Positions 45,544 through 61,016 of a stretch of 64,000 nucleotides of DNA are shown piece after piece. Under the pieces are notes generated by a model that searched no databases, was not told the DNA's origin, and saw only the letters and a list, made by a program, of their open reading frames with translations. The position numbers and the translations under genes were made by a program. The DNA comes from Halobellus rarus. Its GTDB lineage: Archaea > Halobacteriota > Halobacteria > Halobacteriales > Haloferacaceae. The stretch spans positions 62,001 to 126,000 of the forward strand of contig NZ_JANHDI010000002.1 of the NCBI RefSeq assembly GCF_024494595.1, in the 5' to 3' direction. The number at the start of each line of letters is the position of its first letter. The first letter of the stretch is position 1.

Positions 45544-47400
45544 GTGGCCAGCAGCCTCCTCCCCGTCGTCGCGCTGATCCTCGTCTCCGGAATCGGCGTC
45601 CAGTTACTCGCTCGGCGGATCAAGATCCCGAGCGTCGTCTTCTACCTCGCGCTGGGGCTCCTCCTGGGTCCGGAGGCGCTCGGTCTCGTCACGATCGACA
45701 CCTTCGGTGACGGACTGGAGACAATCGTCGGCCTCAGCGTCGCGATCATCGTCTTCGACGGCGCGTTCGCGCTGCAGTTCGACCGGATTCGAGAGGCGTC
45801 GACGACGTCGTTGCGACTGGTCACGGTCGGCGCACTCGTGACGTTCCTCGGGACGGCCGGGGCGGTCCGCGTGCTCGAGGGCGCCACCTGGGAGATCTCA
45901 CTCGTCGTCGGCGCGCTCCTCGTCGCGACCGGGCCGACGGTCATCACGCCGATTCTGGAGGTCGTCCGCGTCAGAGAACACGTCGCCGCGGCCCTGGAGA
46001 CGGAGGGAATCATCAACGACGTGACCGCGGCGATCGCCGCGGTCGTCATCTTCGAGACGATGCTGCTCGACGACATCGGCATCTCGGGGACCATCGTCGC
46101 GTTTCTGGAACGAGCGGGCGTCGGGGTCGCGGCGGGGCTCCTCGCGACCGGGCTCATCTACTTCCTCCTCACGCACGAACTCACGCCCGAAGGCGGGCCG
46201 CAGACCGCCCGGTTTCTGGTCTTCAGTGCGGCGATCGGCTCGTTCGCGCTCGCGGAGACCGTCGCCGCCGAGGCGGGCATCGCCGCCGCGGCGACCGCCG
46301 GCATCGCGCTCGGGAACCTGGATATACCCCACCGCGAGACCATCGAGGAGTTCGCCCGCGACGCGACGCTGATCGTACTGGCGTTCGTCTTCGTCTCGCT
46401 GGCAGCCCTGATCGACGTCGGCGCGATCCTGCGGCTCGGTATCGGCGGGATTCTCCTGGTCGCCGTGGTGATGCTCGTCCTGCGGCCGCTGGTGGCCGGG
46501 ATCGCGACGTTCGGCGTCAGGCAGTTCAACGCCTCCGAACGCCTGTTTCTGGCCGCGATGGGGCCTCGGGGTATCATCCCCGCAAGCGTGGCGACGCTCT
46601 TCGCGATCGAACTGGCGACGGCGGGCAACCAGGCGGCGAGCCAGGTCCTCCTCGGGACCGTCTTCGTCGTCATCGCGACCACGGACGCGATCGAAGCGGG
46701 ATTGGCACGGCAGATCGGCGACACCCTAGGAGTGACACCAATGCGCACGATAATCGTCGGTGGGGGCCGGGTCGGCCTGGCGCTCGCCACCAGACTGGAA
46801 CGGAGAGGAGAGTTCGTCGTCCTGATCGAGGAGGACGAGAAACAGAAGCAATCGGCGCGAGAGGCCGGAATCACGGTCTACGAGGGCGACGGAACGGAGA
46901 ACGACACGCTCCGTGGAGCGGGCATCGACGACGCGAAGATCGTCGTCGCGGCGACGGAGGACGACAACGTCAACCTCCTGGTCTGCCAGACTGCGCGCAC
47001 GAAGTTCGGCGTCGAGGACGTGTACGCTCGGGTCAACGAACCGCAGAATATGGCCGCCTTCGAGGCGCTCTCGGTCACCGCCATCGACGGCCCGATGTCG
47101 ACCGCCTTCGCGATCGACAACGAGATCGAGCGGCCGGAACTGGCCAACTGGATGTACGACGCCAGCGACGGCCACGACATCCAGGAGATCGAGATGACCG
47201 CCGAGGAGCTGGTCGGAGAGTCGATCAGAGACCTCAACGATCGGATCCCCGGCGGGTGCCTCATCGCCGAGATCGGCCAGAACGAGGACGCCCACGTTCC
47301 CGACCCCGACGAGGTCCTCGAATATGGCGATCACCTCACGTTCCTCGGTGACGCCGCCGCCGTCGAAGAGGCCGTCAAGCGGTTTCATCCTCGCGACTGA
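45544..47400 (+). CDS. Cation:proton antiporter with C-terminal TrkA_N/TrkA_C (NhaP type)
   Basis: A 618-residue CPA-type antiporter starting at a GTG (45544). Residues 1-395 hold about 12 helices, including LLVATGPTVITPIL and EGIINDVTAAIAAVV with the transport aspartate. From about residue 400 a TrkA_N domain appears (MRTIIVGGGRVGLALA), and from about 530 a TrkA_C domain (EMTAEELVGESIRDL). These RCK-like parts gate the antiporter by nucleotide or ligand binding. It would expel sodium or move potassium in exchange for protons. The open frame uses no nearby ATG. Confidence 0.92.
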   Translation: MASSLLPVVALILVSGIGVQLLARRIKIPSVVFYLALGLLLGPEALGLVTIDTFGDGLETIVGLSVAIIVFDGAFALQFDRIREASTTSLRLVTVGALVTFLGTAGAVRVLEGATWEISLVVGALLVATGPTVITPILEVVRVREHVAAALETEGIINDVTAAIAAVVIFETMLLDDIGISGTIVAFLERAGVGVAAGLLATGLIYFLLTHELTPEGGPQTARFLVFSAAIGSFALAETVAAEAGIAAAATAGIALGNLDIPHRETIEEFARDATLIVLAFVFVSLAALIDVGAILRLGIGGILLVAVVMLVLRPLVAGIATFGVRQFNASERLFLAAMGPRGIIPASVATLFAIELATAGNQAASQVLLGTVFVVIATTDAIEAGLARQIGDTLGVTPMRTIIVGGGRVGLALATRLERRGEFVVLIEEDEKQKQSAREAGITVYEGDGTENDTLRGAGIDDAKIVVAATEDDNVNLLVCQTARTKFGVEDVYARVNEPQNMAAFEALSVTAIDGPMSTAFAIDNEIERPELANWMYDASDGHDIQEIEMTAEELVGESIRDLNDRIPGGCLIAEIGQNEDAHVPDPDEVLEYGDHLTFLGDAAAVEEAVKRFHPRD

Positions 47401-47727
47401 CGACGAATCGAAGCCGAACCCGGACCTTCGGGGGTCGCACTCGCCAGCGTTAGTCACGGTCCGACTGCTCTGGCAGCGAAACGACGGCACGAAACGCCGT
47501 TGATTCCCCCGCGGAACCCTGCGTCTGCGGTGGGCTGTCAGAACAGCCCCTGACTGTCGGTTGGTGGATCGAGACGGCCGTTCACAGGTCGTTGTGTGGG
47601 AGTACGACGAGACCGCTGACGTTCTCCCGCCGAAAAGGCAGGACTCCACCTCGGCCTTCGACTCCGTTCGCCCTCGTGGTGCGCGGGACAGGAACGATAT
47701 TCGTCCTCGCTTTCGCTCGGACAGAAT
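47401..47727. other. Gap before the integrated element, with a short tRNA-Leu-end match
   Basis: No gene seen in this 327-bp stretch. At 47680-47693 the 14 bases TGCGCGGGACAGGA equal the first part of the tRNA-Leu 3' end repeat that begins at 47728. This may be a small trace of an earlier insertion; it may also be chance. Confidence 0.4.
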
Positions 47728-47787
47728 ATGCGCGGGACAGGATTCGAACCTGCGGACCCCTATGGGACAGCGTCCTAAGCGCTGCGC
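47728..47787 (-). pseudogene. Displaced tRNA-Leu 3' fragment (left attachment site)
   Basis: Sixty bases identical to 58741-58800, covering from just beyond the 3' end through the T-arm, variable arm and anticodon stem of tRNA-Leu. The D-arm and acceptor 5' half are missing. It is the fragment left when an element integrated into the tRNA gene. Confidence 0.9.
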
Positions 47788-48418
47788 TCCGCCTTCGGCG
47801 GAATATCTCTTGGTATTTAAGCGCGCGCCGGATTTCGCTTCGGTATCGTACATTAAGGAGTGCCTCTTTATAAATACGTCTGCGGGACAGCTACACAGAC
47901 TGCCGCCATTTGACGGGGAGGTACAGACGTAAAACCGTGCTTCTACACAGGCACCTGTCTGGTCGAAAAGCATTCCGAGACGTGCGAGCACACTGGTTGG
48001 AACACCGCCTACGGGTGTCCGGCTTCAGTGTCTCCCCACGCGCTTCGCCGTGGATATGTGACCGCGGCTCGGAACGCTGGTCAGCCTAAAGACGTGACGG
48101 GAGAGCGGGCGAATATGAGCGGCAGGGGGTTGGATAAACACTCTGACAAAGGGTCGGCAGCGGAGAAAGCAGGGCAAACGAGAGGTTATCTGAGAGATAC
48201 TTAGAATCTGTTTTGTATTTTTTATTGTATAATTGGCACCACGAGACTCTTCGACCGTATTGTTTTCACAGATTTTTCTCTGAGGACCATATATTTGAAC
48301 GGGTATAGTTATTGATTTTGTATCGTCCTATTATGTTGAGTGTCAGAGTAAGAACCGGACTAAAGTTCTCGAAGCGCAGTGACCGCAGAGTTGAAACGCA
48401 GGGGGAGAAAATAAGGTT
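47788..48418. other. Gene-poor left end of the element
   Basis: A 630-bp AT-rich stretch. No convincing gene; a 29-codon frame (48116-48205, MSGRGLDKHS) and other small frames lack support. It contains TTTTGTATTTTTTATTG around 48210-48226 and an AT-rich stretch before the zinc-ribbon gene. It may hold promoters or terminators. Confidence 0.35.
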
Positions 48419-48541
48419 ATGATGAAGTGTGAACGGTGTGACTCGGACACACGCGTTGAACGCTACGACGTTGACGGATTCACCGGCTATCTCTGTGATG
48501 AGTGCCGGGACAAATGGGACAAAATCCAAGCCAGTGAATAA
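48419..48541 (+). CDS. Tiny zinc-ribbon protein, 40 residues
   Basis: A 40-residue protein with the pattern CERCDSDTRVERYD then LCDECRDKW, two CxxC pairs spaced by 18 residues that would form a zinc ribbon. Two adjacent ATGs at 48419 and 48422 give the start; the second yields 39 residues. Such short zinc proteins are frequent on haloarchaeal mobile elements and are candidates for DNA- or protein-binding regulators. The evidence is the cysteine pattern and a clean open frame; no family named. Confidence 0.62.
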   Translation: MMKCERCDSDTRVERYDVDGFTGYLCDECRDKWDKIQASE

Positions 48542-48652
48542 CCCCCGGCTCTCAACAGCGTTCTATCACCAGCTATTAACAACTGAAATTCTCTTCTCGG
48601 AATTGTGCCGGTATGGCTATTTGTGACAGGTTGTTCGTCTTCCTTTCCTGAA

Positions 48653-49402
48653 CTACGTCCCGAATACCTCTAACGAATCTTTTTCTAATGGTGCCTTGGA
48701 GAAGAGCGACACGATGTCCCCGGTTTGGATGACGGTTTCACCTTTTGGGGTGAGTACATCGCCGTCTCGTTCGACACCCACGACGAGCATTTCGTCGGCC
48801 AGTAGGCCTTCATCAACTGCCTGCTCGATTGTCCTCTCTGCAATCTCCGCACCCTCCGAGACGGTGAATTCGACGACCTCTGCGTCGCCGGCGAGGCTCA
48901 TAAAGTCCGTCAATGACGGCCCTTTCGGCAAGTCTTCAGGGCCGAACGGACTGTACGGTGTGTGGTAATCTCCTTCGACAACACTCTCGTCATTGATTTC
49001 TAACCCCAGATCAGAGAGTTCACCCGCCACCTGATTGATATCACTAGTGTCCGCTCCAACAACGGTAATCGCCAAGTTCTCAGAGCCGGCCATCAACTCT
49101 CGGACGGAGATTACTCCGGAGATGTCCAATGCTGACTGAGCGAGGCGGGGACGGTCCGGAATAGATGCTGTACACCGAAATTGGTAGGTGACGTATCCGT
49201 TTATCGATTTATAATCAACATCAGCCAGATATCCTTGCAGAATACCACACTCTTCGAGCTGTTTGATCCGATTACGGATCGTCGCTGGCGTCACTTCTAC
49301 ATCCTCGGCGATATCCGATGTTGCCGTGTTTCGTGCATCTACTGCCAAGTAATAGAGAATGCGTTTATCGATCTCATCGATACGATGGGCCATACCGGCC
49401 AT
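48653..49402 (-). CDS. AsnC-type HTH regulator with RCK_C (TrkA-C) domain
   Basis: A 249-residue fusion: residues 1-60 an AsnC-type winged helix (IDEIDKRILYYLAVDARNT, VTPATIRNRIKQLEECGIL), a middle RAM-like part, and a C-terminal RCK_C domain (about 165-245, EFTVSEGAEIAERTIEQA and KGETVIQTGDIVSLF). The RCK_C domain binds nucleotides or cyclic-di-AMP-type ligands in potassium systems, so this likely senses such a signal and controls the adjacent trk genes; that is inference from context. MAHRIDEID at 49393 is an alternative start. It is divergent from the UspA-trk cluster, with a 400-bp gap. Confidence 0.85.
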   Translation of the reverse strand: MAGMAHRIDEIDKRILYYLAVDARNTATSDIAEDVEVTPATIRNRIKQLEECGILQGYLADVDYKSINGYVTYQFRCTASIPDRPRLAQSALDISGVISVRELMAGSENLAITVVGADTSDINQVAGELSDLGLEINDESVVEGDYHTPYSPFGPEDLPKGPSLTDFMSLAGDAEVVEFTVSEGAEIAERTIEQAVDEGLLADEMLVVGVERDGDVLTPKGETVIQTGDIVSLFSKAPLEKDSLEVFGT

Positions 49403-49804
49403 TAGATCAGGATAAATAAAGGGTCTTCTCTATTTGTGATCGTGACGAGTTCCAGTTCCTCGGACGGTTGCCTACATCCCACAACACTCCCTCGAAGATC
49501 CTCTACAACACTCGTCTGAACCGCTTTTGGCGTCAATCGACCCCAGATTCCGCTAATCAGGGGCACGACTAGTGGTTTAGTGAAATTGAGAAGTTGTCTG
49601 AGAGTGGTACACACCTACTTAGATACTTCTACGCCAGACACAGGATTGTTTGGATTGACACGCCGTGGTCGTTAGGGCTAGGAGGGTCCACCTAATACAG
49701 CACTCTTCACAATAAAGTGACTATATTTCGGTTGGGGAAAATTTGAGCAGGATATATTGCTCTATACCGAAATTCTATCCCAATCTTTATATAATAGAGT
49801 AAGT
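49403..49804. other. Divergent intergenic region of the trk cargo
   Basis: About 400 bp between the AsnC-RCK gene and the Usp-Trk genes. No gene; AT-rich near 49720-49800 with a TTTATATAAT promoter-like box at about 49793. Shared regulation of both directions is plausible. Confidence 0.4.
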
Positions 49805-49912
49805 ATGGATCGAGTGGCGAATCCCGTGACAAAAAGCATCGCGTCGGAAAGGCTGGTTCGTCGGCTACCGGAGCCACGTCGACAGACCGGAAACAACAGT
49901 GATCCACAGAGT

Positions 49913-50263
49913 ATGACTCGATCTGATATTGATCCCCCCGAAGGTATCCCTCAGGGGGTTATTACCGCACTCAAAGACAGCAGCGATAATCAACTGAGGG
50001 AGATCATCCACTACGCGCAACAACTCCTCGAAGACCACCCGTCTCTTACGGACGCTATCGAATCACGCCTCGGAGAGGACCTCGTTCGGATAGAGGACTA
50101 CGGTGAGTACACGATTGTCATCGTCGAACGTCCGGACGAAACGGGCGAAGCGCGCGGGCCGTTCGCCTACCGGGTCAAATGGGAATCCACTGTCGACGGG
50201 GAGGAGGGGCAATATCGGTGGCACTACCTCGGGAAAGTTCACGGCGATACGGGAGGTGGCTGA
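49913..50263 (+). CDS. Hypothetical protein in the trk cargo
   Basis: A 116-residue protein starting at MTRSDIDPPEG; an ATG at 49805 would give 152 residues but the added N terminus lacks protein character. It has a helical start (IIHYAQQLLEDHPSLTDA) and a beta-rich C-terminal part ending YRVKWESTVDGEEGQYRWHYLG. No known domain. It is one base apart from the UspA gene on the same strand, so cotranscription is likely. Function unknown. Confidence 0.62.
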   Translation: MTRSDIDPPEGIPQGVITALKDSSDNQLREIIHYAQQLLEDHPSLTDAIESRLGEDLVRIEDYGEYTIVIVERPDETGEARGPFAYRVKWESTVDGEEGQYRWHYLGKVHGDTGGG

Positions 50264-50264
50264 G

Positions 50265-50708
50265 ATGACTGAGTTGTTTTTCGAACGGGCTGTCGTGCCG
50301 GTTGCAAACCGTGAAGATGCCGCCGCGACCGCGACCGCACTCGTCGAGAACATCGACGATTCGGATAGTACCGTGATTGCCGTCCACGTTATCGAAAAGG
50401 CTGATGGAGGAATGGATAAGGCCTCCGTTGAGCAGCGTAAGCTGTTTGCGCAGGACGTATTCGAGGTACTGACTGAGGGCCTCGCTGACACCGATATTAC
50501 CCTCGAAACGGAGATCCGTTACGGCACTGATGTTGCATCGACACTCATCGATGCGGCTCAGGAACTCAACGCCAGCGCTATCGTGTTTACTCCTCGTGGT
50601 GGGAGTCGCTGGCGCAAACTGTTGACCGGAGATGTTTCTCACAACCTCATCGAGAACAGCGATATTCCGATTGTGGTCATCTCCGACGAAGGGGTGAGCG
50701 AAGCGTGA
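50265..50708 (+). CDS. Universal stress protein A family, element-borne
   Basis: A 147-residue UspA-like protein (LFFERAVVPVANREDA, VIAVHVIEKADGG, AIVFTPRGGSRWRKLLTGDVSHNL, DIPIVVISDE). It carries the ATP-binding-type GGSxxxxxLTGDVS loop. It lies inside the tRNA-Leu-integrated element, upstream of trkA. Usp proteins often sit beside K+ transport genes in haloarchaea and may adjust transport to energy or stress; inference. The start codon overlaps no upstream gene. Function unknown in detail. Confidence 0.88.
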   Translation: MTELFFERAVVPVANREDAAATATALVENIDDSDSTVIAVHVIEKADGGMDKASVEQRKLFAQDVFEVLTEGLADTDITLETEIRYGTDVASTLIDAAQELNASAIVFTPRGGSRWRKLLTGDVSHNLIENSDIPIVVISDEGVSEA

Positions 50709-50763
50709 GTGCGATTAGACATCGAATGTCCGGACAGGCAGCGAGCTAATAATTCAATTTCAT

Positions 50764-51450
50764 ATGTACATCATCATCGTTGGAGCAGGCGATATCGGAA
50801 CGCCACTGATCGAGATTTCGACCCGTGCTGGGAACGAAATCGTAGTTATCGAGCGGGACACACAGCGGGCCGACGCAGTCGCCAGCGAATACGACTGTCT
50901 CGTGCTGAATGCGGATGCCACGACCAAGGAAACGCTAGGCGAGGCCGGCGCAGAACGGGCCGACGCGATCATCTCGACGACTGATCAGGACGCCACCAAT
51001 GTGATGGTCTGTCTGCTCGCACAGGAGTTCGAGATTCCGGTGATCACGTCGGTCGTGCACAGCGCAGAGCATATGAATCTCTTCCGGCAGATCGGAGTGA
51101 ATACGATCGAAAATCCGCAGCAGCTCATCGCGGGACATCTCTATCGAGCGGTCGCCAGACCGGCGATCGTCGATTATATGCGAATTGGCGAGGAGGCGGA
51201 AGTCTTCGAAATCACGGTTACGGAAGATGCACCCATCGCTGGCAAGACACTCACGGAAGCGGGCGAGGAGGGCATCCTCTCGGACGACGTCTTGATCGTT
51301 GCTATCGGACGTGACAGCGAAGACAAGCCACTGACACCCCGGGGAAACACCCGAATCAAGGCTGACGACCTACTGACCGTCTATTCGGCGTCCGGAGCGG
51401 ACCCGGAACTCACGGACATCTTTGGCCATTACGAAGACCAGACTGTGTGA
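50764..51450 (+). CDS. trkA: TrkA potassium uptake regulatory subunit
   Basis: A 228-residue RCK protein: TrkA_N Rossmann domain with IIVGAGDIGTPL near the start and NAD/nucleotide site through residue 130, and TrkA_C from about 145 (AEVFEITVTEDAPIAGKTL, KADDLLTVYS). It gates the TrkH channel by nucleotide binding. A single RCK unit rather than the two found in E. coli TrkA. It lies 55 bp after UspA and 24 bp before the truncated TrkH. Element-borne, so it is probably an accessory K+ system. Confidence 0.92.
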   Translation: MYIIIVGAGDIGTPLIEISTRAGNEIVVIERDTQRADAVASEYDCLVLNADATTKETLGEAGAERADAIISTTDQDATNVMVCLLAQEFEIPVITSVVHSAEHMNLFRQIGVNTIENPQQLIAGHLYRAVARPAIVDYMRIGEEAEVFEITVTEDAPIAGKTLTEAGEEGILSDDVLIVAIGRDSEDKPLTPRGNTRIKADDLLTVYSASGADPELTDIFGHYEDQTV

Positions 51451-51474
51451 TCATCAGGAACAAACATAATTAGT

Positions 51475-51813
51475 ATGTCCACTACACTTGTCGGCCGTTC
51501 TGATGCGCTAACCGCCGCAAAAGCAGTTGTCAGGGACATCGGTGCACTAAAAATCCTCATCAGCGGACTGATGTTGGTACCACTGCTTATCTCCTTAATC
51601 TATCAGGAGTGGTACAGCGCGATTGCCTTCCTGAGTGCGGCAGTAGTCACGGCGCTCGTTGGCGGAGCTTCGTACAAGCGGTGTGAAGATGCCCCTGAAC
51701 CAAAACGCCACCACGCGATGATCGTCGCCGCACTCACTCTACTACCGTTGGAAACGAGGCATCGAGACAATAGACGACGAGAATGGGTCTACAAGCTGAA
51801 TGTGTGGATTTGA
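51475..51813 (+). pseudogene. Truncated TrkH (N-terminal part only)
   Basis: A 112-residue product with the start of a TrkH: hydrophobic helices around residues 20-60 (GALKILISGLMLVPLLISLIY and SAIAFLSAAVVTALVGG), then RCEDAPEPKRHHAMIVAALT. The same layout appears at the front of the intact TrkH (MRVNRSAVGHDV to PEKRDAMVTAATAW). The sequence then goes to a basic, non-membrane tail and a stop. It is best read as a remnant of a second trkH that lost its C-terminal part. It lies between trkA and the intact trkH. Confidence 0.7.
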
Positions 51814-51831
51814 GATAGTAAACAACTGGCT

Positions 51832-53388
51832 ATGATGAGGGTAAACAGGAGCGCTGTCGGGCACGACGTTGGTCGGATCGTACAAGCGATAGCGTTGATG
51901 TCTGTGGCATCTATCATCGTGGCAGCCCTCAACGGAGAGTTCTACGCAATACCTGCCTTCGGTGTCACAGCGGTTATCATCGGCGGAGTCGGGACCGGAC
52001 TCGTCCGTCGGTATCAGGACGCCGATCCGCCCGAAAAACGCGATGCGATGGTCACTGCGGCCACCGCGTGGGCTGTCATCGGCGTCCTCGGTGGACTCCC
52101 GTTCTTGTTCATCGCCTGGACAATACAAATTGATCCTTTCCCGGTCTGGACAAATACGCCACCGATGGATTCGACGACAGTTATCTTCCTCCATCCATTG
52201 GACTCGGTCTTCGAGAGTATGAGCGGTTTCACCGGGACGGGGCTGACGATGGCTGCTGTCGAGGAAAAGTTGCCACGGTCGATCCACTGGTGGCGGTCGT
52301 TCATCGAATGGGTCGGCGGCGTCGGGGTGATCGTGTTGACTGTCGCAATTCTCCGGCGCGGCGACGGGAGCAGTGGATCGTACACTCTGTATGAAAGTGA
52401 AGCCCGATCCGAGAAGATTCATCCGAGCATCGTAACGACAGTCCAAGAAATTTGGAAAATCTTCGTTGGCCTGACGATCGGCTCGATTATCCTATTTGTG
52501 CTAGTCGGGATGCCGCTGTGGGATGCGATCAACCACGCGATGACGGGGATAGCGACAGGAGGGTTCTCCGTCCACGGGGCATCGATCGGTCACTACGGCA
52601 GTCCGCTGATCGAATATGCAGTTGTGCCAGTAATGGTCGCCGGCAGTATCGCATTCCCTATTCACTATTTAATATTCAAAGGAGAGGTGCGAAACTTCTA
52701 CGCGGACCTGCAGACGCGATGGGTGTTCCTTTGGTTCACTATCGGGTCACTTGCGCTGACGGCGGTCCTCTATGCGAACGGGCAGTACGCCACACTCGAA
52801 GAGACGTTCCGAGTGGGCTTGTTCCAATTCGTCTCCGCCACGTCGAATACCGGATTCGGGACGGCCACTATTGGTGGGGGAACGGAACAAGTCTGGAGTG
52901 CTGGTGCAACACTGTTGACGTGTCTAGGGATGCTTACCGGCGGCGCGGCTGGCTCGACAACTAGTGGACTCAAACTTATCCGGGTGATTACGCTGATCAA
53001 GGGGACCGAGTGGCAGATCCGAGAGGTCTTCCGGCCGTCAAGCGCCATTCGGTACCTCCGGATCGGCGAGCGTAAACTTAGCGAAGAACAGACGCAACAG
53101 GAGTATACTGAAGCGACGGTCGTGTTCGTCCTCTGGGTCACGTTCCTCGCCATCGGCGTTGCCGTGCTCCTGCGTGTTCTCTCTCCGGCTCACCCGCTGG
53201 AGTATGTGATCTTCGACGTGATGAGTGCTCAGAGTAACGTCGGGTTGGACTCCGGTATTACTGGTCCGACGATGCCCGACACTGCAAAAGCGATGTTGAT
53301 AATCAATATGTGGGTCGGACGTCTAGAAATCATCCCGGTTGCGGTGCTGCTTGGGGCGATCTTTCAGCGGTTTAATCTCTACAGGTGA
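51832..53388 (+). CDS. trkH: TrkH potassium uptake channel protein
   Basis: A 518-residue Trk/Ktr-type channel with about ten helices and four selectivity-filter-like P-loops. One is SMSGFTGTGLTM near residues 120-131, and further ones are MTGIATGGFSVHG, SATSNTGFGTATIG and SAQSNVGLDSGIT. It takes up K+ with TrkA and the membrane potential. The ATG at 51832 gives the full family length and the first helix begins about residue 15. The pair trkA-trkH lies 381 bp apart with the truncated trkH between them. Monovalent-ion uptake is its role; it is cargo of the integrated element. Confidence 0.93.
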   Translation: MMRVNRSAVGHDVGRIVQAIALMSVASIIVAALNGEFYAIPAFGVTAVIIGGVGTGLVRRYQDADPPEKRDAMVTAATAWAVIGVLGGLPFLFIAWTIQIDPFPVWTNTPPMDSTTVIFLHPLDSVFESMSGFTGTGLTMAAVEEKLPRSIHWWRSFIEWVGGVGVIVLTVAILRRGDGSSGSYTLYESEARSEKIHPSIVTTVQEIWKIFVGLTIGSIILFVLVGMPLWDAINHAMTGIATGGFSVHGASIGHYGSPLIEYAVVPVMVAGSIAFPIHYLIFKGEVRNFYADLQTRWVFLWFTIGSLALTAVLYANGQYATLEETFRVGLFQFVSATSNTGFGTATIGGGTEQVWSAGATLLTCLGMLTGGAAGSTTSGLKLIRVITLIKGTEWQIREVFRPSSAIRYLRIGERKLSEEQTQQEYTEATVVFVLWVTFLAIGVAVLLRVLSPAHPLEYVIFDVMSAQSNVGLDSGITGPTMPDTAKAMLIINMWVGRLEIIPVAVLLGAIFQRFNLYR

Positions 53389-53708
53389 AAAAGAAAGGGA
53401 ATCCAATTTGGACATCACGACAACTACAACTAGATACTGTACTGAGTGACTCATAACCCCTTCTCTCTAACGTGAGTGGCTGATTTTATCGCTGGTGAAA
53501 TTGATGACACGACTCACAGCCAATTGAAACACTTAGCATCCATTCGAGCCAATTGTGCTCACGCTAATGAGAAGGAACCTGACCGCTGTGATGTTGAAAG
53601 GCTATTTAGCTAAGCTGAAGGAATAATCACCTCAATATCGGATCTCTTTCAGAATGTCATTTGCTTAGAATAGTATTTATTCGATATTTGTCGATATAAT
53701 TGTACCGC
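53389..53708. other. AT-rich non-coding stretch after trkH
   Basis: 320 bp with no convincing gene. It has AT-rich runs and TATA-like elements (TTTATTCGAT around 53685) and separates the convergent trkH and SWIM genes. Short frames are not protein-like. Confidence 0.35.
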
Positions 53709-54140
53709 TCAGACCCGTACTCCCTTGCGATAGCAGGGCCAGCACGGGAGATCTGATAGAGTAGTACAGTCACACTCGCCGGCCAAGGCTGACTTATCAC
53801 TCTCTACTGATTGAGTCGAGAAGCCCGCCGCAGCATCCAACACCACCGCCCCGCCGACCGCAGCGAGTGCAACCTTGTGCTTGCAGTCGTACTCTTCGTT
53901 GTACATATCTGCCGGGCACTCGCACTCAGCCGGAACGAGGACGCCGTCACGATCTTCAACGCCGACGAGGTAACTGTGGTCGTCTTTCTCAACCCCGTAG
54001 GATGCGTTCGTGACACGGACGAGATGCGGCGCTTCAATCGTAAACTCCCACGACTCCCACGTGACGCGCTTGGACGTCTTCGCGCCGAAGTTCAGGTACT
54101 CAACAGCACTCTTATTTCTTTCCGCTGTTTTAATTTCCAT
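53709..54140 (-). CDS. SWIM zinc-finger protein
   Basis: A 143-residue protein with the SWIM pattern CxC followed by CxH: AECECPADMYNEEYDCKHKVALA. SWIM fingers bind DNA or proteins and occur near mobile elements. The C terminus has more cysteines (GECDCTT, LPCWPCYRKG). I choose MEIKTAERNK at 54140. A GTG at 54233 would add 31 residues, but that region (54141-54233) folds into three strong hairpins and looks like RNA rather than protein. Cargo of the integrated element. Function unknown. Confidence 0.72.
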   Translation of the reverse strand: MEIKTAERNKSAVEYLNFGAKTSKRVTWESWEFTIEAPHLVRVTNASYGVEKDDHSYLVGVEDRDGVLVPAECECPADMYNEEYDCKHKVALAAVGGAVVLDAAAGFSTQSVESDKSALAGECDCTTLSDLPCWPCYRKGVRV

Positions 54141-54141
54141 T

Positions 54142-54201
54142 GGCTTTCTCTTCCCTGAGAAGCCGACTCCGGGTGTTCCTACCACCCGGCGTTTCAACGC
54201 C
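54142..54201 (-). ncRNA. Three consecutive hairpins before the SWIM gene
   Basis: GGCTTTCTC/GAGAAGCC (54142-54164, one bulge), CCGGGTG/CACCCGG (54169-54189) and GGCGTT/AACGCC (54188-54201) lie end to end. The last two share two bases, so they could switch. This could be an mRNA leader, the scar of an IS200/IS605-type insertion, or a small RNA. On the minus strand it precedes the SWIM start by few bases. Confidence 0.45.
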
Positions 54202-54314
54202 CTGAGGGAACCTGCCTTCTCACCATTACCCACGTAAGGATAGGATATAGCTGTATCGGTTCCCCACGTGCGTAGTGGGAAAGAGGTAATGTTTCGTGCG
54301 TCGAATCTGGTGTT

Positions 54315-54557
54315 ATGGGACGAAAACGCGGCGAGGGTGGTCGGTATCAGGAGACTGTGTCCGTCGACGCCGTCCTTGAGCTATTTACCGACACGGAACC
54401 CCGGACAACGAACGAGGTCGCAGAAGCCCTTGATATAGCACAGAAGACAGCGTACAACAAGCTTGAGACGTTGACAGACCGCGGCGATATTCGGAAGAAG
54501 AAGATCGGGGGCTTGGCTGTGGTTTGGTGGCGGCCTGATCCTCCCGAGATGGAGTGA
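54315..54557 (+). CDS. Small winged-helix DNA-binding protein
   Basis: An 80-residue protein with a winged helix-turn-helix: VDAVLELFTDTEPRTTNEVAEALD, then IAQKTAYNKLETLTDRGDI and a wing (KKKIGGLAVVWWRP). This is the typical MarR/ArsR-like small regulator of haloarchaeal mobile elements. It begins after a TTCCCCAC...GTGGGAA hairpin at 54260-54281, a candidate operator. Probably a regulator of the element; its targets are unknown. Confidence 0.8.
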   Translation: MGRKRGEGGRYQETVSVDAVLELFTDTEPRTTNEVAEALDIAQKTAYNKLETLTDRGDIRKKKIGGLAVVWWRPDPPEME

Positions 54558-55297
54558 GAGATAGGTTGTGACACGGTCAGTCCGGGTGTGGTCCGAATGG
54601 AGGTAAGCTGCTCAGAATTTTTTGGAATTTTCGGCAGTTCATATTAAGCTGAACGGGCGTCAGCATTCTAATCTCCCGTGAGAATAATCCCTGGTACAGA
54701 CGAAAAGCGGTGCACGAAACAAACCTCCTCAGTGTCGGTAGATAAGTGGGCAAGCTGAGAAGCCCATCACCTTGTCCCCCTCTGTCAAATTGTAGTAGTC
54801 TGTTGAGTGATTAGCCGTAGAGTGGGCATCTTCTACCGAGTATAGTCTTTCTTCGATCTCCGTAGTAACCCCCTGTCTTGCCTGGCTTCTCGACTAACTA
54901 AGACTGAGTTAGATACTACTGATCTCCCTTCTACTAAGGTAGATTCTCTACTTATCAACATAGAACTGAGTCTCTTATTTCTATAAGATCTACTCTATGC
55001 CTTACTCTATCACGGTACAGGGACCTTCGCACTCACTCAGAGGCCGCCTGAATTCGGATCTGGTAGGAGTCTCAGAACCGGAAGCATAGACGGTTCTGAC
55101 GAATTTACGGATTACTCAACACGGGCCTTGAGACATTCTTACTTACCGTCGGGTTGTACCGAGATCTCCGCCTCCTTGCGGGGCCTTTCTGTTCAACTCG
55201 ACTATCTAACCCCACCATCTTAGAAGGTGATCTAAGATCTTCATTTCGCAAGTTGACTTTTTGTATATTATATTATACGAAACATCAACTCAGATCA
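54558..55297. other. 740-bp AT-rich non-coding region with inverted repeats (candidate origin)
   Basis: No gene seen. It includes perfect inverted repeats CTAACT/AGTTAG (54894-54912) and TCTAC/GTAGA (54930-54943) and many short CTAC/GTAG-like words between 54800 and 55010. It lies directly downstream of the helicase-like gene within the element. In plasmid-like elements such a region often holds the replication origin; this is inference. Confidence 0.4.
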
Positions 55298-57145
55298 TTA
55301 GCACTCACAGAGAACGATAGTATCTTTTCCCCTACGTTCAAGAGAGATGTTCCACCAATAGTCGCAGGAACCTCGACGTTCCTTGCCAATCGTATCATCC
55401 TCATTGAGCGTGTTCAAGTGCTTACGAATCTGATGATAACCTATCGGATTTTTATGTAGCTTTTCCACGATACTCTCAATCTCTTTGGTGGATCGTTCTG
55501 CGTCCTGCCAATCTTCGCCGTGAGTCAATGCGTTGTATACTTGTCTGAAGCCCTGGCTTCCCTCTATTTTCTTTACCGTCAACAGACACGGCTCGGGTTG
55601 TACCCATTCCGGAATAGCAGATGAATGAACGTAGACACGGATTTCACTCTCACGTCCCGGTTTTCGACTGAAGCGCATCGCTGCTTGAAGCAACTCATTC
55701 TCACGAGTACCGTGGAGTACGTCGTTTCCGACCGGGCCGAAGTCCGACTTTTCACCAGGAAGTCTAATTCCGTTGGTATCTCTCGCGAGGTATGGCTTGT
55801 GTCCACCAAGTGCGACCCACTTCTGAATATGTTCGTCACTTAGTTGCGGACAGCCGATGATGAGAACCGGGCTTATCTGATCGAGATCATTCCTACCCTT
55901 CAGGTTGGAGAAATTCTCTGAACCTTGAATTAGGTCCTCAAAGTCTTTGTACTGACGACGCAGGTTTTTAAGTCCCTGTTTAGAGGTCACAACAAACGGT
56001 TTAGAGTCCTCTCGCCGGTAGACCTCTTCAACAACCGCGTGAGCTTCTTGTGTATTGTTGGAACCGGCTCTCGCCGGGACAGACTTACGAGTTGTTTGGA
56101 TGATCCGTATCCCGAGATGTCCGACCCATTCGGCTTTTTCTTCATCGGTCAGGACGGCAAGAGGCTCCAATTCATCACCGAGAAGAACCCGCCACATCGC
56201 AACTGACGGAGTCCCATCAAGAGCGACAACATTGGAGTGTTCAAATGGGAATGGAGGTTGGATGAACACTGTCCCTTTGGGAGATTTTACAACAATCGTT
56301 CCGTCCCCCAACTCAGTTTGATGCCAACCCTCGGGTAACACTGTGGAATCAAGGGCAGCACGGACGAGAATTGCACCATATGCGTGTGGCCCCGGATTCT
56401 GAGCATCGTAATTCCATCCTGCGGATTTGATACTGTTTCCTTCAGGAGAATCAAGCCACGTGCGGACCTGCGGGTTTTCCTCTCTACTCAATCGGAACCT
56501 GAGAATGTCTTCTGTGTTCAGGAAGGGTAGTACAGGGCAATTACTCAGATACCGGTTAATCGTGTCGTTTACGTCGTCTGCTGTGAGTTCAGTTAGAACG
56601 CTGTCACCGGGAGACTCATCAATAACAACCTGACGGGAGTTACTGTACGCCGGTTTGAACATATGCCGGTAGTTCCCGATAAGAACGTCTATCTCCTCAA
56701 AATCCTCCGCCTGTTTGTTGAGTTGAGAGAGATACGGACACTCCCCCTCAGTTTGGCAGGGAAGCTCCTCGCCGAAGATCCTGTGAGCGTGTTCGTGAAG
56801 TGCTCGGCCTGAAAATCCGGCTTCTATTTTCTCGTCAAACCTTCGTTTCCATTCGTCACCGTGTTTTCTGTCCGCTTCGCTTTTTGATGCAGTCGGACAG
56901 TCAAGGAGATGCGAGGGGAGTGTTTGATAACTCACGCCAAACTCACGGCAGTTGTCCTTGAGCTGCTCGTACAGGTCGTGTCGTTCGGTGAAGATAACGA
57001 TCTGCTCGCCGCTGTTTGCAACCCACTTAATAACGCCTGTACTCTTGCCAAGTGCCGGGAGTACGTCGACAAGGACGGGTTTGTCAGACTCAAATGCTTG
57101 CTCAATTACAGCACTGCTTCGGGAGTAGAAATTTCTAAAAGACAT
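55298..57145 (-). CDS. Helicase-like replication protein of the element
   Basis: A 615-residue protein with SF2-helicase-like elements: a P-loop near residues 25-40 (VDVLPALGKSTGVIKW), VIFTERHD, a DExx motif in VVIDESPGD, VVALDGTPS, SKQGLKNLRRQYKDF and QAAMRFSR in the motif VI position. A winged-helix-like C-terminal part (NPIGYHQIRKHLNTLNEDD) follows. It has cysteines in CQTEGECPYL, possibly an iron-sulphur or zinc site. Proteins with this layout replicate haloarchaeal plasmids and viruses. It sits next to the AT-rich region and the integrase, all on the minus strand. Assignment from motifs only. Confidence 0.72.
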   Translation of the reverse strand: MSFRNFYSRSSAVIEQAFESDKPVLVDVLPALGKSTGVIKWVANSGEQIVIFTERHDLYEQLKDNCREFGVSYQTLPSHLLDCPTASKSEADRKHGDEWKRRFDEKIEAGFSGRALHEHAHRIFGEELPCQTEGECPYLSQLNKQAEDFEEIDVLIGNYRHMFKPAYSNSRQVVIDESPGDSVLTELTADDVNDTINRYLSNCPVLPFLNTEDILRFRLSREENPQVRTWLDSPEGNSIKSAGWNYDAQNPGPHAYGAILVRAALDSTVLPEGWHQTELGDGTIVVKSPKGTVFIQPPFPFEHSNVVALDGTPSVAMWRVLLGDELEPLAVLTDEEKAEWVGHLGIRIIQTTRKSVPARAGSNNTQEAHAVVEEVYRREDSKPFVVTSKQGLKNLRRQYKDFEDLIQGSENFSNLKGRNDLDQISPVLIIGCPQLSDEHIQKWVALGGHKPYLARDTNGIRLPGEKSDFGPVGNDVLHGTRENELLQAAMRFSRKPGRESEIRVYVHSSAIPEWVQPEPCLLTVKKIEGSQGFRQVYNALTHGEDWQDAERSTKEIESIVEKLHKNPIGYHQIRKHLNTLNEDDTIGKERRGSCDYWWNISLERRGKDTIVLCEC

Positions 57146-57530
57146 TGTCTACAGGAGATGCCGCCGGCTCAGGATTCAATTAGTCTGCAGAAGCCGCCTG
57201 CTTTTTCTCCTCACTAATTAATGGCAGTGAGAGTATATAAACTAAGTGGTAGTACCAATCTACGCACTATGATTCAACGATCAGCTCAATAGCTTGTGAG
57301 AACCCAAGACCCACTGGTATTCTCCCCGGGCCTTAGCCTCAACAGCCTGCTTTTTGCCTAAATACGTCCATCTGAACGAATTCACGATCTACAACTGCCT
57401 CCTGAATTCACCGGTGTCCCTCAGATTGACTCAGGACGAGTTTTTCAGAGTGACCAAGGGCCATTGAATCGTGGTTGGAAAACGCCGTCAGAATCCCCTC
57501 AGACGTGCGAGGTTTGGACGCTTGTATGTT
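57146..57530. other. Gap between integrase and helicase genes
   Basis: 385 bp, AT-rich near 57220-57270. No gene recognised. It presumably contains the helicase-gene promoter, since that gene starts at 57145 on the minus strand. Confidence 0.35.
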
Positions 57531-58694
57531 TCAACCCATCTTGTCAAGCACGTCTCGGCGGGCTTCTACCGATACCTGATCGTACTTCATTGTCGTCTTC
57601 GGACTCTTGTGTCGTAGTTGATCCTTCGCGGCTTTCAGGTCACGATGATGGGTCATATACGTCCCAACAGAGTGACGAATGGTGTACCACGACATTTGGC
57701 GGTTCTCGTAGTCGATCTCCGCTTGATCACAGAGCCGCCGAAGGAGCCGGGCGAGGCTTTTCGATCCGAACGGGTTCCCGTGGGTCGTCAACCAAAGCGC
57801 GTCAGTTCCCTCGTATCGAGGTATCTGTTCTCGTTCAGTGAGCCACCGCTGTAGTGCCGTCGCCGTCCGGTTCGTGAGCGAGACCGTCCAATTACCCTCG
57901 TTCTTGGACGACTCTTCGTAGGGGATACGAAGTACGCCGTTCTTGTAGTCTACCCATTTTGTCGTCGCGTTGCTCACCTCGTCAGGTCGAAGCCCCGCGT
58001 CGAGGCTCGTCCACACCAGTGACGTTATTTCCCATCCGTCGATCTCGTCCCAATCGTCTTTGGTGACCTCTTCATAGGGCTTGCCGAGGACGGTAGCGAC
58101 GTGGTGTTTCCATCCGCTCCGCTCTTGGGGAGTCAGAGAATCGTACGCAGGGATATTCCCCTCGTTGAGCGCGGCTTGTCGGATCTTTCTGCGCTCTGGT
58201 TCTGAGAGATAGTCGCGCGGCTCAAGGCTCGATCCCCGACTTCGGAAGGTGTACTCGAACTCCCACTCGGGTTCTCCCCGCGTGTAGTGGAGCCACTTCG
58301 AGAGGTGGTTGATCGCTTCTTGCAGCTTGCCCTTTTCGACTTGGCCGGTGTCGGAGAACGCAAGGTGTTCTATGAACGCTTGCGCGTCGGCTTCCTCGGG
58401 TGGATACTTGTAATCACCATTCCGTTCCCACAGCCATTTGTCAAATCGTGCAGTACGGTATGAGTCGCTGTAGACGGTGTATTCGGCGTATCCTTCCGCC
58501 CTATTGGGGTTCTTCCCGACATTCAGCAGCCACGACAGGAATTGGATTCTCTGCTCTTTGTAGTCTACGAGCTGTTTCTCGGACAGCACGCCGTCGTGCG
58601 TTTTTGGGACGACTACGATGCTTCTTCCGGGGTCGAGATCGGGGTCAACCCCTATGTCGCAGTTATTCAGCGTTATCGGTAGGTCGATCTTCAT
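57531..58694 (-). CDS. int: Tyrosine integrase of the tRNA-Leu element
   Basis: A 387-residue phage-type integrase. The N-terminal half is a SAM-like core-binding region; the catalytic half has Arg in LDAGLRPDEV, the IRHS box (TIRHSVGTYM) with the second Arg, RHKSPKTTMKYDQ with the His and catalytic Tyr. The first His of the HxxR box is Tyr (WYTIRH), a variant seen in some archaeal enzymes. The start at 58694 lies 47 bp from the repeat in tRNA-Leu, the classic position. It would join the element to the 60-bp site and perhaps excise it. Confidence 0.9.
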   Translation of the reverse strand: MKIDLPITLNNCDIGVDPDLDPGRSIVVVPKTHDGVLSEKQLVDYKEQRIQFLSWLLNVGKNPNRAEGYAEYTVYSDSYRTARFDKWLWERNGDYKYPPEEADAQAFIEHLAFSDTGQVEKGKLQEAINHLSKWLHYTRGEPEWEFEYTFRSRGSSLEPRDYLSEPERRKIRQAALNEGNIPAYDSLTPQERSGWKHHVATVLGKPYEEVTKDDWDEIDGWEITSLVWTSLDAGLRPDEVSNATTKWVDYKNGVLRIPYEESSKNEGNWTVSLTNRTATALQRWLTEREQIPRYEGTDALWLTTHGNPFGSKSLARLLRRLCDQAEIDYENRQMSWYTIRHSVGTYMTHHRDLKAAKDQLRHKSPKTTMKYDQVSVEARRDVLDKMG

Positions 58695-58741
58695 TTTCTG
58701 GTCCTACCGAAGCAAAACCGACAGACTGCATCGAGGTCAGA

Positions 58742-58824
58742 TGCGCGGGACAGGATTCGAACCTGCGGACCCCTATGGGACAGCGTCCTAAGCGCTGCGC
58801 CTTTGACCGCTTGGCTACCCGCGC
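58742..58824 (-). tRNA. tRNA-Leu (anticodon TAG)
   Basis: An 83-nt class II tRNA with a long variable arm. Acceptor GCGCGGG / CCCGCGC with A discriminator; anticodon loop CTTAGGA in a CAGCG/CGCTG stem; T-loop TTCGAAT. No intron. Its 3' 59 nt plus one extra base make the 60-bp repeat at 58741-58800. The intact gene was restored by the element's copy after integration. Confidence 0.94.
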
Positions 58825-58906: not shown

Positions 58907-59215
58907 ATGTACAGCGCCCGGGACCGAGTCGAAAACGAGGAGTGGCTGACCCGAATCGAGCGCGCTGCGGATCGGCTAGGTCTCGGCTCCGAGGCCCGCT
59001 CTTATGCGACCGATATGTTCCTCTCCGAAGTACCCGCCGAGGACCGGTCGAAGCGTGCCGTGGCGGCGGCGAGCCTCTACGCCGGTGCCCTCATCGCGGG
59101 CGAGGAACGGGCGCAATCCCGGGTCGCCGACGCGATGGAAGTGAGTCGGCTCAGCGTCCAGCAACACTGGAAACCGATACTCGAGGCTGCGGGGTTTCGC
59201 CCGCCTTCGTGGTAG
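58907..59215 (+). CDS. Minimal TFB-like cyclin-fold protein
   Basis: A 102-residue protein resembling one cyclin repeat of archaeal transcription factor B: TRIERAADRLGLGSEARSYATDMF, then RSKRAVAAASLYAGALIAG and the HTH-like QSRVADAMEVSRLSVQQHWKPIL. It lacks the N-terminal zinc ribbon and B-finger of full TFB, so it cannot start transcription in the usual way. It may compete or form part of a regulator. The ATG at 58907 lies close to tRNA-Leu. Found alone in haloarchaeal genomes in this reduced form; function unknown. Confidence 0.82.
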   Translation: MYSARDRVENEEWLTRIERAADRLGLGSEARSYATDMFLSEVPAEDRSKRAVAAASLYAGALIAGEERAQSRVADAMEVSRLSVQQHWKPILEAAGFRPPSW

Positions 59216-59927: not shown

Positions 59928-61016
59928 TCAATATAGGGAGTAGATATGGGATTCGTAGGTCTGACGGACCCTATCGCCCCAATTATGGGTGTAGGTATCG
60001 ATGATGTCGCCCCCGACGTCGCCGCGGAGGTATTTGACGATCCCGCGGTCGCCGGTCCGATCCCTGAGGTGTGTGGTGAAGAAGTGCCGGAAGTAATGCG
60101 GCGTGACGTTCTCTTCTGCGCCACCGCCGGAACGGTACCAGCCGGAATCGGTCGCGTGGCGTTCGACGAGGTGATGGACCATATCCGGGGTGAGCCGACT
60201 GCCCCAACTCCCCGACGTGCTGCAAAAGAGGGGCTCCGCGGGCGAGCGTGTCTCCGGGCGGATCGCGAGCCATCGGCGCAACGCCGTCGCGAGTTCCTCG
60301 TCCACGGGGACGATCGTCGAGCGTTTGCGCTTGTTCGACGCCGTACGCTCCTCGCCCGCGAGTACCTCGCCCGCGGCTGGTTCCGCAGAGACGTACAGCG
60401 ACGGACCCCGGTTTTCGAGTTGCGCCCGAGGGGAAACCTCCGCGCTCGATACAGCAGCGAGAGCTGTATCGCGTGCGTTACTCGTCCCCTCGGAGAGGAC
60501 GATGTCTCGGAGATCGAGGTTACAGAGTTCGCCGACGCGGATACCGGTCTTCAGGAGGGTCACGACGACGGCGTGATCCATCGGATGAGCGATTTCGGCG
60601 AGGAACTCGCGCATCGCCGGAACCGACACGTCCCGACGGGACGGGTTCGTGTCGATCCGTTCGTCCATCTCCTCCATCACGAGTGTCATCGGATTGGAAT
60701 CGAACGCACCGACTTGAGCCAGGTACGCGTAGAACCGATGTAGATACGACGCGTACGTCGCGACGGTGCTGTCTGCTAAGTCTCCGTGTCGAAGCGAGTG
60801 AATCCAGGCCATACAGTCGCGATGGGTGGCGTCGTCCGGTTCGATCCCGATACCGCGGGGATTCCGCGACGAATCCGCGAGGAAATCCTCGAAGCGTCGA
60901 AGCACCCGTTTGTACGCCTCGCGGGTTCGATCGGACTTTCCGTGGTACGTCATATCCTGAAGGAAGTATCCGATGGGATCCTCCAGGTCACTTTCGTCCG
61001 CCGCGCCGACGCTCAT
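59928..61016 (-). CDS. Tyrosine recombinase (XerC/XerD-like)
   Basis: A 362-residue tyrosine recombinase. The N-terminal SAM-like domain (YHGKSDRTREAYKRVLRRFE) is followed by the catalytic part: Arg in TGIRVGELCNL, the HxxR box HYFRHFF, and the Tyr near DTYTHNWGDRV. An extra stretch with low sequence resemblance (about residues 180-230, SAEVSPRAQLENRG) lies between catalytic Arg and Lys. It may serve chromosome resolution or an old integration; no tRNA or repeat flanks it. Its start overlaps the upstream gene by four bases. Confidence 0.88.
   Translation of the reverse strand: MSVGAADESDLEDPIGYFLQDMTYHGKSDRTREAYKRVLRRFEDFLADSSRNPRGIGIEPDDATHRDCMAWIHSLRHGDLADSTVATYASYLHRFYAYLAQVGAFDSNPMTLVMEEMDERIDTNPSRRDVSVPAMREFLAEIAHPMDHAVVVTLLKTGIRVGELCNLDLRDIVLSEGTSNARDTALAAVSSAEVSPRAQLENRGPSLYVSAEPAAGEVLAGEERTASNKRKRSTIVPVDEELATALRRWLAIRPETRSPAEPLFCSTSGSWGSRLTPDMVHHLVERHATDSGWYRSGGGAEENVTPHYFRHFFTTHLRDRTGDRGIVKYLRGDVGGDIIDTYTHNWGDRVRQTYESHIYSLY

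Follow-up and report, generated by a model that had tools for sequence, protein, structure and literature searches.

According to the relevant passages of PMC8651126, tRNA genes are the integration sites of most haloarchaeal tailed proviruses, and the sections of PMC8371274 drawn on here describe an HSTV2 integrase family restricted to Halobacteria, define the R...YxxR...Y integrase motif and place the family criterion at an identity of at least 30% over 60% of the protein. HSTV-2, HRTV-2/-7/-11 and HCTV-6/-15 are assigned to the genus Mincapvirus (Hafunaviridae) in the taxonomy lines of their records. Just ahead of int, these viruses have a 3' segment like that of tRNA-Leu(GAG), after which comes a spacer with the motif CTTCGGTAGG; in HCTV-6 a type IIG restriction-modification gene adjoins the integrase (L144 4181-7161), and HSTV-2 and HRTV-2/-7 have small ORFs there. 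Potassium import genes have been described on genomic islands of Halorubrum ezzemoulense, where selected passages of PMC11078007 report K+ import cassettes with extra trkA/trkH copies on islands 42 and 43. These Trk islands adjoin a core trkH, are presented as transporter islands of host-like GC and are contrasted with integrase-bearing islands, which hold restriction genes and mostly hypothetical proteins (selected passages of PMC11078007).

The locus reported here lies in a 64,000-nucleotide stretch of the Halobellus rarus genome (the window) and, like the Halorubrum Trk islands, combines a K+ import cassette with a genomic island; unlike them, it sits in a tRNA gene. Our data indicate that it is very probably an integrative plasmid-like element that entered the 3' half of tRNA-Leu(TAG) through site-specific recombination. 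The first-pass annotation had proposed an 11-kb element integrated in this gene with a K+-uptake cargo, and the repeat, the integrase, the empty site in relatives and the gene content all bear this out. Both ends are marked by a perfect 60-bp direct repeat with a spacing of 11013 bp, and the right copy is, as had been claimed, the 3' part of an intact tRNA-Leu(TAG) (Table 1). The 60-mer occurs perfectly at just these two places genome-wide, and the remaining tRNA-Leu genes (GAG, CAG) match it at 88-91%, which rules out a chance repeat or a paralogous tRNA copy and disposes of the objection, raised in advance, that the repeat might extend by chance into other tRNAs. The 35 bp outside the left copy and the 35 bp directly 3' of the tRNA in the genus relative G006 are identical at 33 positions, a match that shows directly, at the level of sequence, that the left copy is the original tRNA 3' end in a displaced position. 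GC inside the element is 0.40-0.58 per gene or gap, compared with 0.648 for the host, the latter taken from the 47.7 kb to the left of the element. The locus thus resembles the pNOB8-like 'classical' tyrosine-integrase elements, with a tRNA 3'-end repeat at both borders, an intact integrase inside that is not split by integration, and an empty site in relatives.

Table 1. Features of the element and of its tRNA-Leu(TAG) site (window positions unless another locus is named)
Feature	Position	Strand	Basis
Partial tRNA-Leu 3'-end copies	window 47680-47694; L038 16891-16913; L042 16889-16911; L047 16890-16911		
Integrase-distal att copy (displaced tRNA 3' end)	47728..47787	.	repeat; outer flank compared with tRNA 3' flank of G006
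40-aa ORF with two CxxC pairs (putative zinc microprotein)	48419..48541	+	sequence
AsnC-type HTH + TrkA_C regulator, divergent from Trk operon	48653..49402	-	
Operon ORF of unknown function, conserved beside usp-trkA in other haloarchaea	49757..50263	+	
UspA-type universal stress protein	50265..50708	+	
TrkA1 (TrkA_N + TrkA_C)	50764..51450	+	
trkH1 5' remnant (about 87 codons) fused to usp2 3' end; deletion scar	51475..51813	+	fusion at about 51734/51735
TrkH2, full-length K+ channel subunit, 518 aa	51832..53388	+	
SWIM-zinc-finger-like protein	53709..54233	-	sub-cutoff Pfam match
Small winged-helix regulator	54315..54557	+	Pfam winged HTH
XPD/DinG-like helicase, 615 aa, C-terminal winged helix; probable replication helicase	55298..57145	-	
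Tyrosine integrase, 387 aa, HSTV-2 type; R...YxxR...Y motif intact	57531..58694	-	alignment
att-integrase spacer with CTTCGGTAGG motif	58695..58740	-	
Integrase-proximal att copy (60-bp repeat; rebuilds tRNA 3' end)	58741..58800	.	repeat comparison
tRNA-Leu(TAG), intact; 3' 59 nt within right repeat copy	58742..58824	-	ARAGORN

The tyrosine integrase had been placed just inside the right end, and it does start 46 bp from the right repeat; it is full length, and the catalytic arginine, YxxR and tyrosine residues are all present when it is aligned to the HSTV-2 integrases. It is 72.8-73.4% identical over its whole length to the integrases of HSTV-2, HRTV-2/-7/-11 and HCTV-6/-15, and this identity of 73% over 100% of the protein places it within the HSTV-2 integrase family. 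The layout is that of Mincapvirus as well, with a tRNA-Leu 3' segment directly upstream of int at the same spacing and the CTTCGGTAGG spacer motif common to the element and the tailed viruses (a Haloferax element has the similar CTTCGGCAGG). Unlike the viruses, whose att resembles tRNA-Leu(GAG), the element has an att of the TAG type and is without recognised virion genes. An integrase 73% identical to those of Mincapvirus, in the same att-spacer-int arrangement, could be expected of a satellite that uses a virus-type integrase and might be packaged by HSTV-2-type tailed viruses; we regard this as very improbable in view of the helicase, which is found on plasmids and in 0 of 50,697 phage records, and of the capsid, terminase and packaging genes, none of which was recognised among the main ORFs with Pfam, PHROGs and NCBIfam. 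A provirus is rejected, since no structural genes were recognised among the main ORFs and the helicase is absent from these phage records.

Relatives of the integrase in named genomes adjoin tRNA-Leu(TAG) in 15 of 18 loci and tRNA-Leu(GAG) in one. In four of the 15, from Haloferax mucosum (L148), Halomicrococcus (L149), Halolamina salifodinae (L152) and the MAG QS_6_64_34 (L160), direct repeats of 54-56 bp bound elements of 6.4-11 kb, so that these share with our element the integrase family, the site and the form of a small tRNA-integrated element; they differ from it in having no Trk cargo and largely different backbones. A scan of IMG/VR with the integrase gave two contigs only, of 68.5 and 71.4 kb.

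The presence/absence comparison at the tRNA-Leu locus that had been suggested as a check was run on 16 genus relatives. The tRNA-Leu(TAG) site is present in 16/16, adjoined in most by a TFB-like gene and coaD, and neither a second 60-bp copy nor Trk genes occur at it in any (0/16 for each); the gene order seen in the window is thus not common to relatives, and an ordinary chromosomal Trk locus is ruled out. In G008 (L048) the order is antiporter, about 140 bp, tRNA, TFB-like gene and coaD, which is an empty site: the antiporter gene of the left flank is 91% identical there, with nothing between it and the tRNA. In G004 the antiporter is 95% identical, and the gap between it and the tRNA contains only an integrase remnant of about 200 bp (L039 2650-2856; 59% identity to integrase residues 4-68) and a near-unchanged copy of the element's integrase-proximal end, which we read as an earlier element of the same family that decayed at this tRNA and was nearly erased. 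A 23-bp tRNA scrap in G006, preceded by a copy of the integrase-proximal spacer, is by the same reading another trace of older integration, and the tRNA-Leu(TAG) locus is a repeated integration target. Partial copies of the tRNA-Leu 3' end, 15-23 bp long and some 30-110 bp past the tRNA 3' end, were also seen in the left flank of the window and in several relatives (Table 1), the one in L038 preceded by the element's integrase-proximal spacer; they suggest scars of earlier integrations.

The decayed remnant in G004 and the short scar with its spacer in G006, together with the broken trkH1 of the element itself, raise the question of whether the window holds a fixed, decaying genomic island that has lost the ability to excise. 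Several features argue against decay: no position differs between the 60-bp att copies, the full-length integrase retains its catalytic residues and the other backbone ORFs are uninterrupted. We consider a fixed island unlikely.

Searches of Pfam, PHROGs, NCBIfam, PADLOC and PDB sequences gave no meaningful match for the protein that had been called helicase-like, yet its predicted fold fits the XPD/DinG helicases. The structure model (pLDDT 83) has as its top Foldseek matches DinG 9kqh (E 2e-13) and XPD 3crv (2.5e-13), with a TM of about 0.45. Across 14 aligned homologues the Walker A motif LPA.GKS, the DExx box DE(F/S)P and motif VI QA..RF.R are invariant or nearly so, and four cysteines (66, 83, 130 and 136), candidate ligands of an Fe-S cluster, are conserved between helicase motifs I and II. 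The Walker A, DExx and VI motifs, with the predicted two-domain XPD/DinG fold, are those of an XPD/DinG-type SF2 helicase, probably a replication helicase. Homologues occur in 86 of 392 genomes of the order; longer ones are found on circular plasmids of 8.9 and 10.8 kb, each of which also encodes a site-specific integrase, and one of these plasmid homologues has a weak DnaG_N-like stretch upstream. The IMG/VR scan with the helicase returned three contigs only, all with distant homologues and one of about 10 kb.

An integrase lies within the fetched 12-20 kb in 12 of the 14 helicase homologue loci, and seven of them have tRNA direct repeats of 18-39 bp that enclose elements of 6-12 kb. This so far unnamed family of XPD/DinG-like helicases seems to mark many tRNA-integrated haloarchaeal elements. 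The backbone of helicase, winged-helix and SWIM-like genes recurs in such elements with differing cargo, often restriction-modification: the gene order is kept in L126 (50/58/54% identity) and L135, and the winged-helix and SWIM-like pair is also in L159. The elements at L126 (G382), L135, L138 and L159 resemble ours in helicase and/or winged-helix and SWIM-like genes, integrase, tRNA direct repeat and size, and differ from it in lying at other tRNAs, often with SNJ2-like integrases, and in carrying restriction-modification or other cargo. Restriction systems of type I (L135), type IIG (L129) and a methyl-directed kind (L138) are among the related cargo, which likewise lies between the backbone and the distal att. 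We tentatively propose, with confidence slightly short of an even chance, that the helicase is the mark of a widespread haloarchaeal group of small integrative plasmids, as yet without a name. Its members would have exchanged integrase modules both with tailed viruses (HSTV-2 type) and with pleolipoviruses (SNJ2 type), would use many tRNAs as targets and would have moved defence and core ion-homeostasis genes between haloarchaeal families. The helicase would then serve as a marker to find and classify elements that existing profile libraries leave unnamed. A helicase-family element at tRNA-Val (L133 12166-13077) also encodes DUF1424 plasmid Rep-like and uracil-DNA-glycosylase-like proteins. 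Of the small zinc and winged-helix proteins annotated in our element, the winged HTH is confirmed, the SWIM match falls slightly below the Pfam cutoff (19.3 compared with 19.6 bits) and the 40-aa CxxC ORF has no Pfam match.

The cargo has the parts of a Trk K+ uptake system, a TrkH with four P-loops and a TrkA with TrkA_N and TrkA_C. Usp, TrkA_N + TrkA_C and TrkH domains were found where UspA, TrkA and an intact TrkH had been annotated; the supposed AsnC-RCK regulator does have an AsnC-type HTH, and of the RCK only the TrkA_C half is present. TrkH2 aligns to the known TrkH structure 3pjz (E 3e-41) with all four P-loop glycines seen by inspection, and both TrkA1 and TrkH2 look intact. Homology of the ORF between regulator and usp begins at about residue 20-50, so its true start is probably downstream of the annotated one. 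The broken TrkH was also borne out: the nucleotide alignment to L118 jumps from about codon 87 of trkH1 to the usp2 3' end, which a deletion of about 3.2 kb that took most of trkH1, trkA2 and usp2 explains, and a frameshift or sequencing error is ruled out.

The operon regulator-orf-usp-trkA1-trkH1-trkA2-usp2-trkH2, or a shortened form of it, is present in 12/12 fetched loci from several haloarchaeal families, and no integrase or helicase lies within about 9 kb of the cassette at any of them. Plasmids NC_014299 and NC_014301 of Halalkalicoccus jeotgali carry the same regulator-orf-usp-trkA1-trkH1...trkH2 operon; unlike ours, these cassettes keep a complete trkH1-trkA2, sit on plasmids and are without this integrase-helicase backbone nearby. 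Since the cassette exists elsewhere without an integrase, the Trk operon is, on this comparison, a captured operon and no integral part of the element family. Regulator homologues of 74-79% identity are on plasmids of Halalkalicoccus jeotgali, Halovenus salina and Halobacterium hubeiense. The regulator tree places the window copy among members from other families and sets the two own-family homologues apart, as a clade on a long branch, and homologues in sampled genus relatives reach only about 50% identity or less, which supports horizontal acquisition of the operon.

How the operon reached its place bears on a two-step history, in which a small element of integrase, helicase, winged-helix and SWIM-like genes was already integrated when homologous or illegitimate recombination brought the Trk cassette into it. 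The 12/12 cassette loci without an integrase, the other cargo borne by the element family and the local rearrangement seen in the trkH1 deletion all fit such a course; however, no direct or inverted repeats of at least 9 bp were found around the cassette, related elements keep their cargo in the same position from backbone to distal att, and the cassette, lying between perfect 60-bp att copies, would still exit with the element. We consider this history possible but somewhat doubtful. A transposon insertion of the cassette, which has no matching ends, is ruled out.

As an integrative plasmid-like element, the locus would be mobilised by its integrase: recombination between the 60-bp copies may release an 11,013-bp circle, with a single intact tRNA left behind. 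Replication of this circle would fall to the XPD/DinG-like helicase and its regulation to the small winged-helix protein. No conjugation or capsid genes were recognised in the element, and transfer would be passive. The passenger is a horizontally gained haloarchaeal Trk operon (TrkA and TrkH, Usp and the AsnC/TrkA_C regulator) that probably gives the host extra K+ uptake, and since one ancestral trkH-trkA pair was later deleted, K+ transport would rest on TrkA1 and TrkH2. Judged by its homologues, the integration machinery is of a known, virus-related kind, and no K+ cargo was seen on any such element among the relatives examined, with the Trk cassette at 0 of 18 integrase-relative loci. This agrees with the earlier remark that no described element with this exact cargo is known: open-access titles, abstracts and selected passages on haloarchaeal tRNA-Leu integrases and on Trk cargo of mobile elements hold no description of the combination. 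Haloarchaea maintain very high internal K+, which makes its uptake a central part of their physiology, and a compact element with a whole regulated Trk operon at a tRNA site offers a concrete vehicle for spreading salt adaptation.

The flanks deserve brief mention. Directly outside the left att, at window 45544-47400, lies a Na+/H+ exchanger-like antiporter fused to TrkA_N and TrkA_C, so that the Trk-bearing element adjoins another RCK-controlled ion transporter; the antiporter is also there in some element-free relatives, and the adjacency may be a coincidence. On the other side, window 58907-59215 encodes a 102-aa protein with a single TFIIB repeat that lies between tRNA-Leu(TAG) and coaD in many haloarchaea and is probably not a complete TFB. 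A second tyrosine recombinase (window 59928-61016) also adjoins coaD in several genus relatives, with 77-90% conservation, and is apparently core, not mobile.
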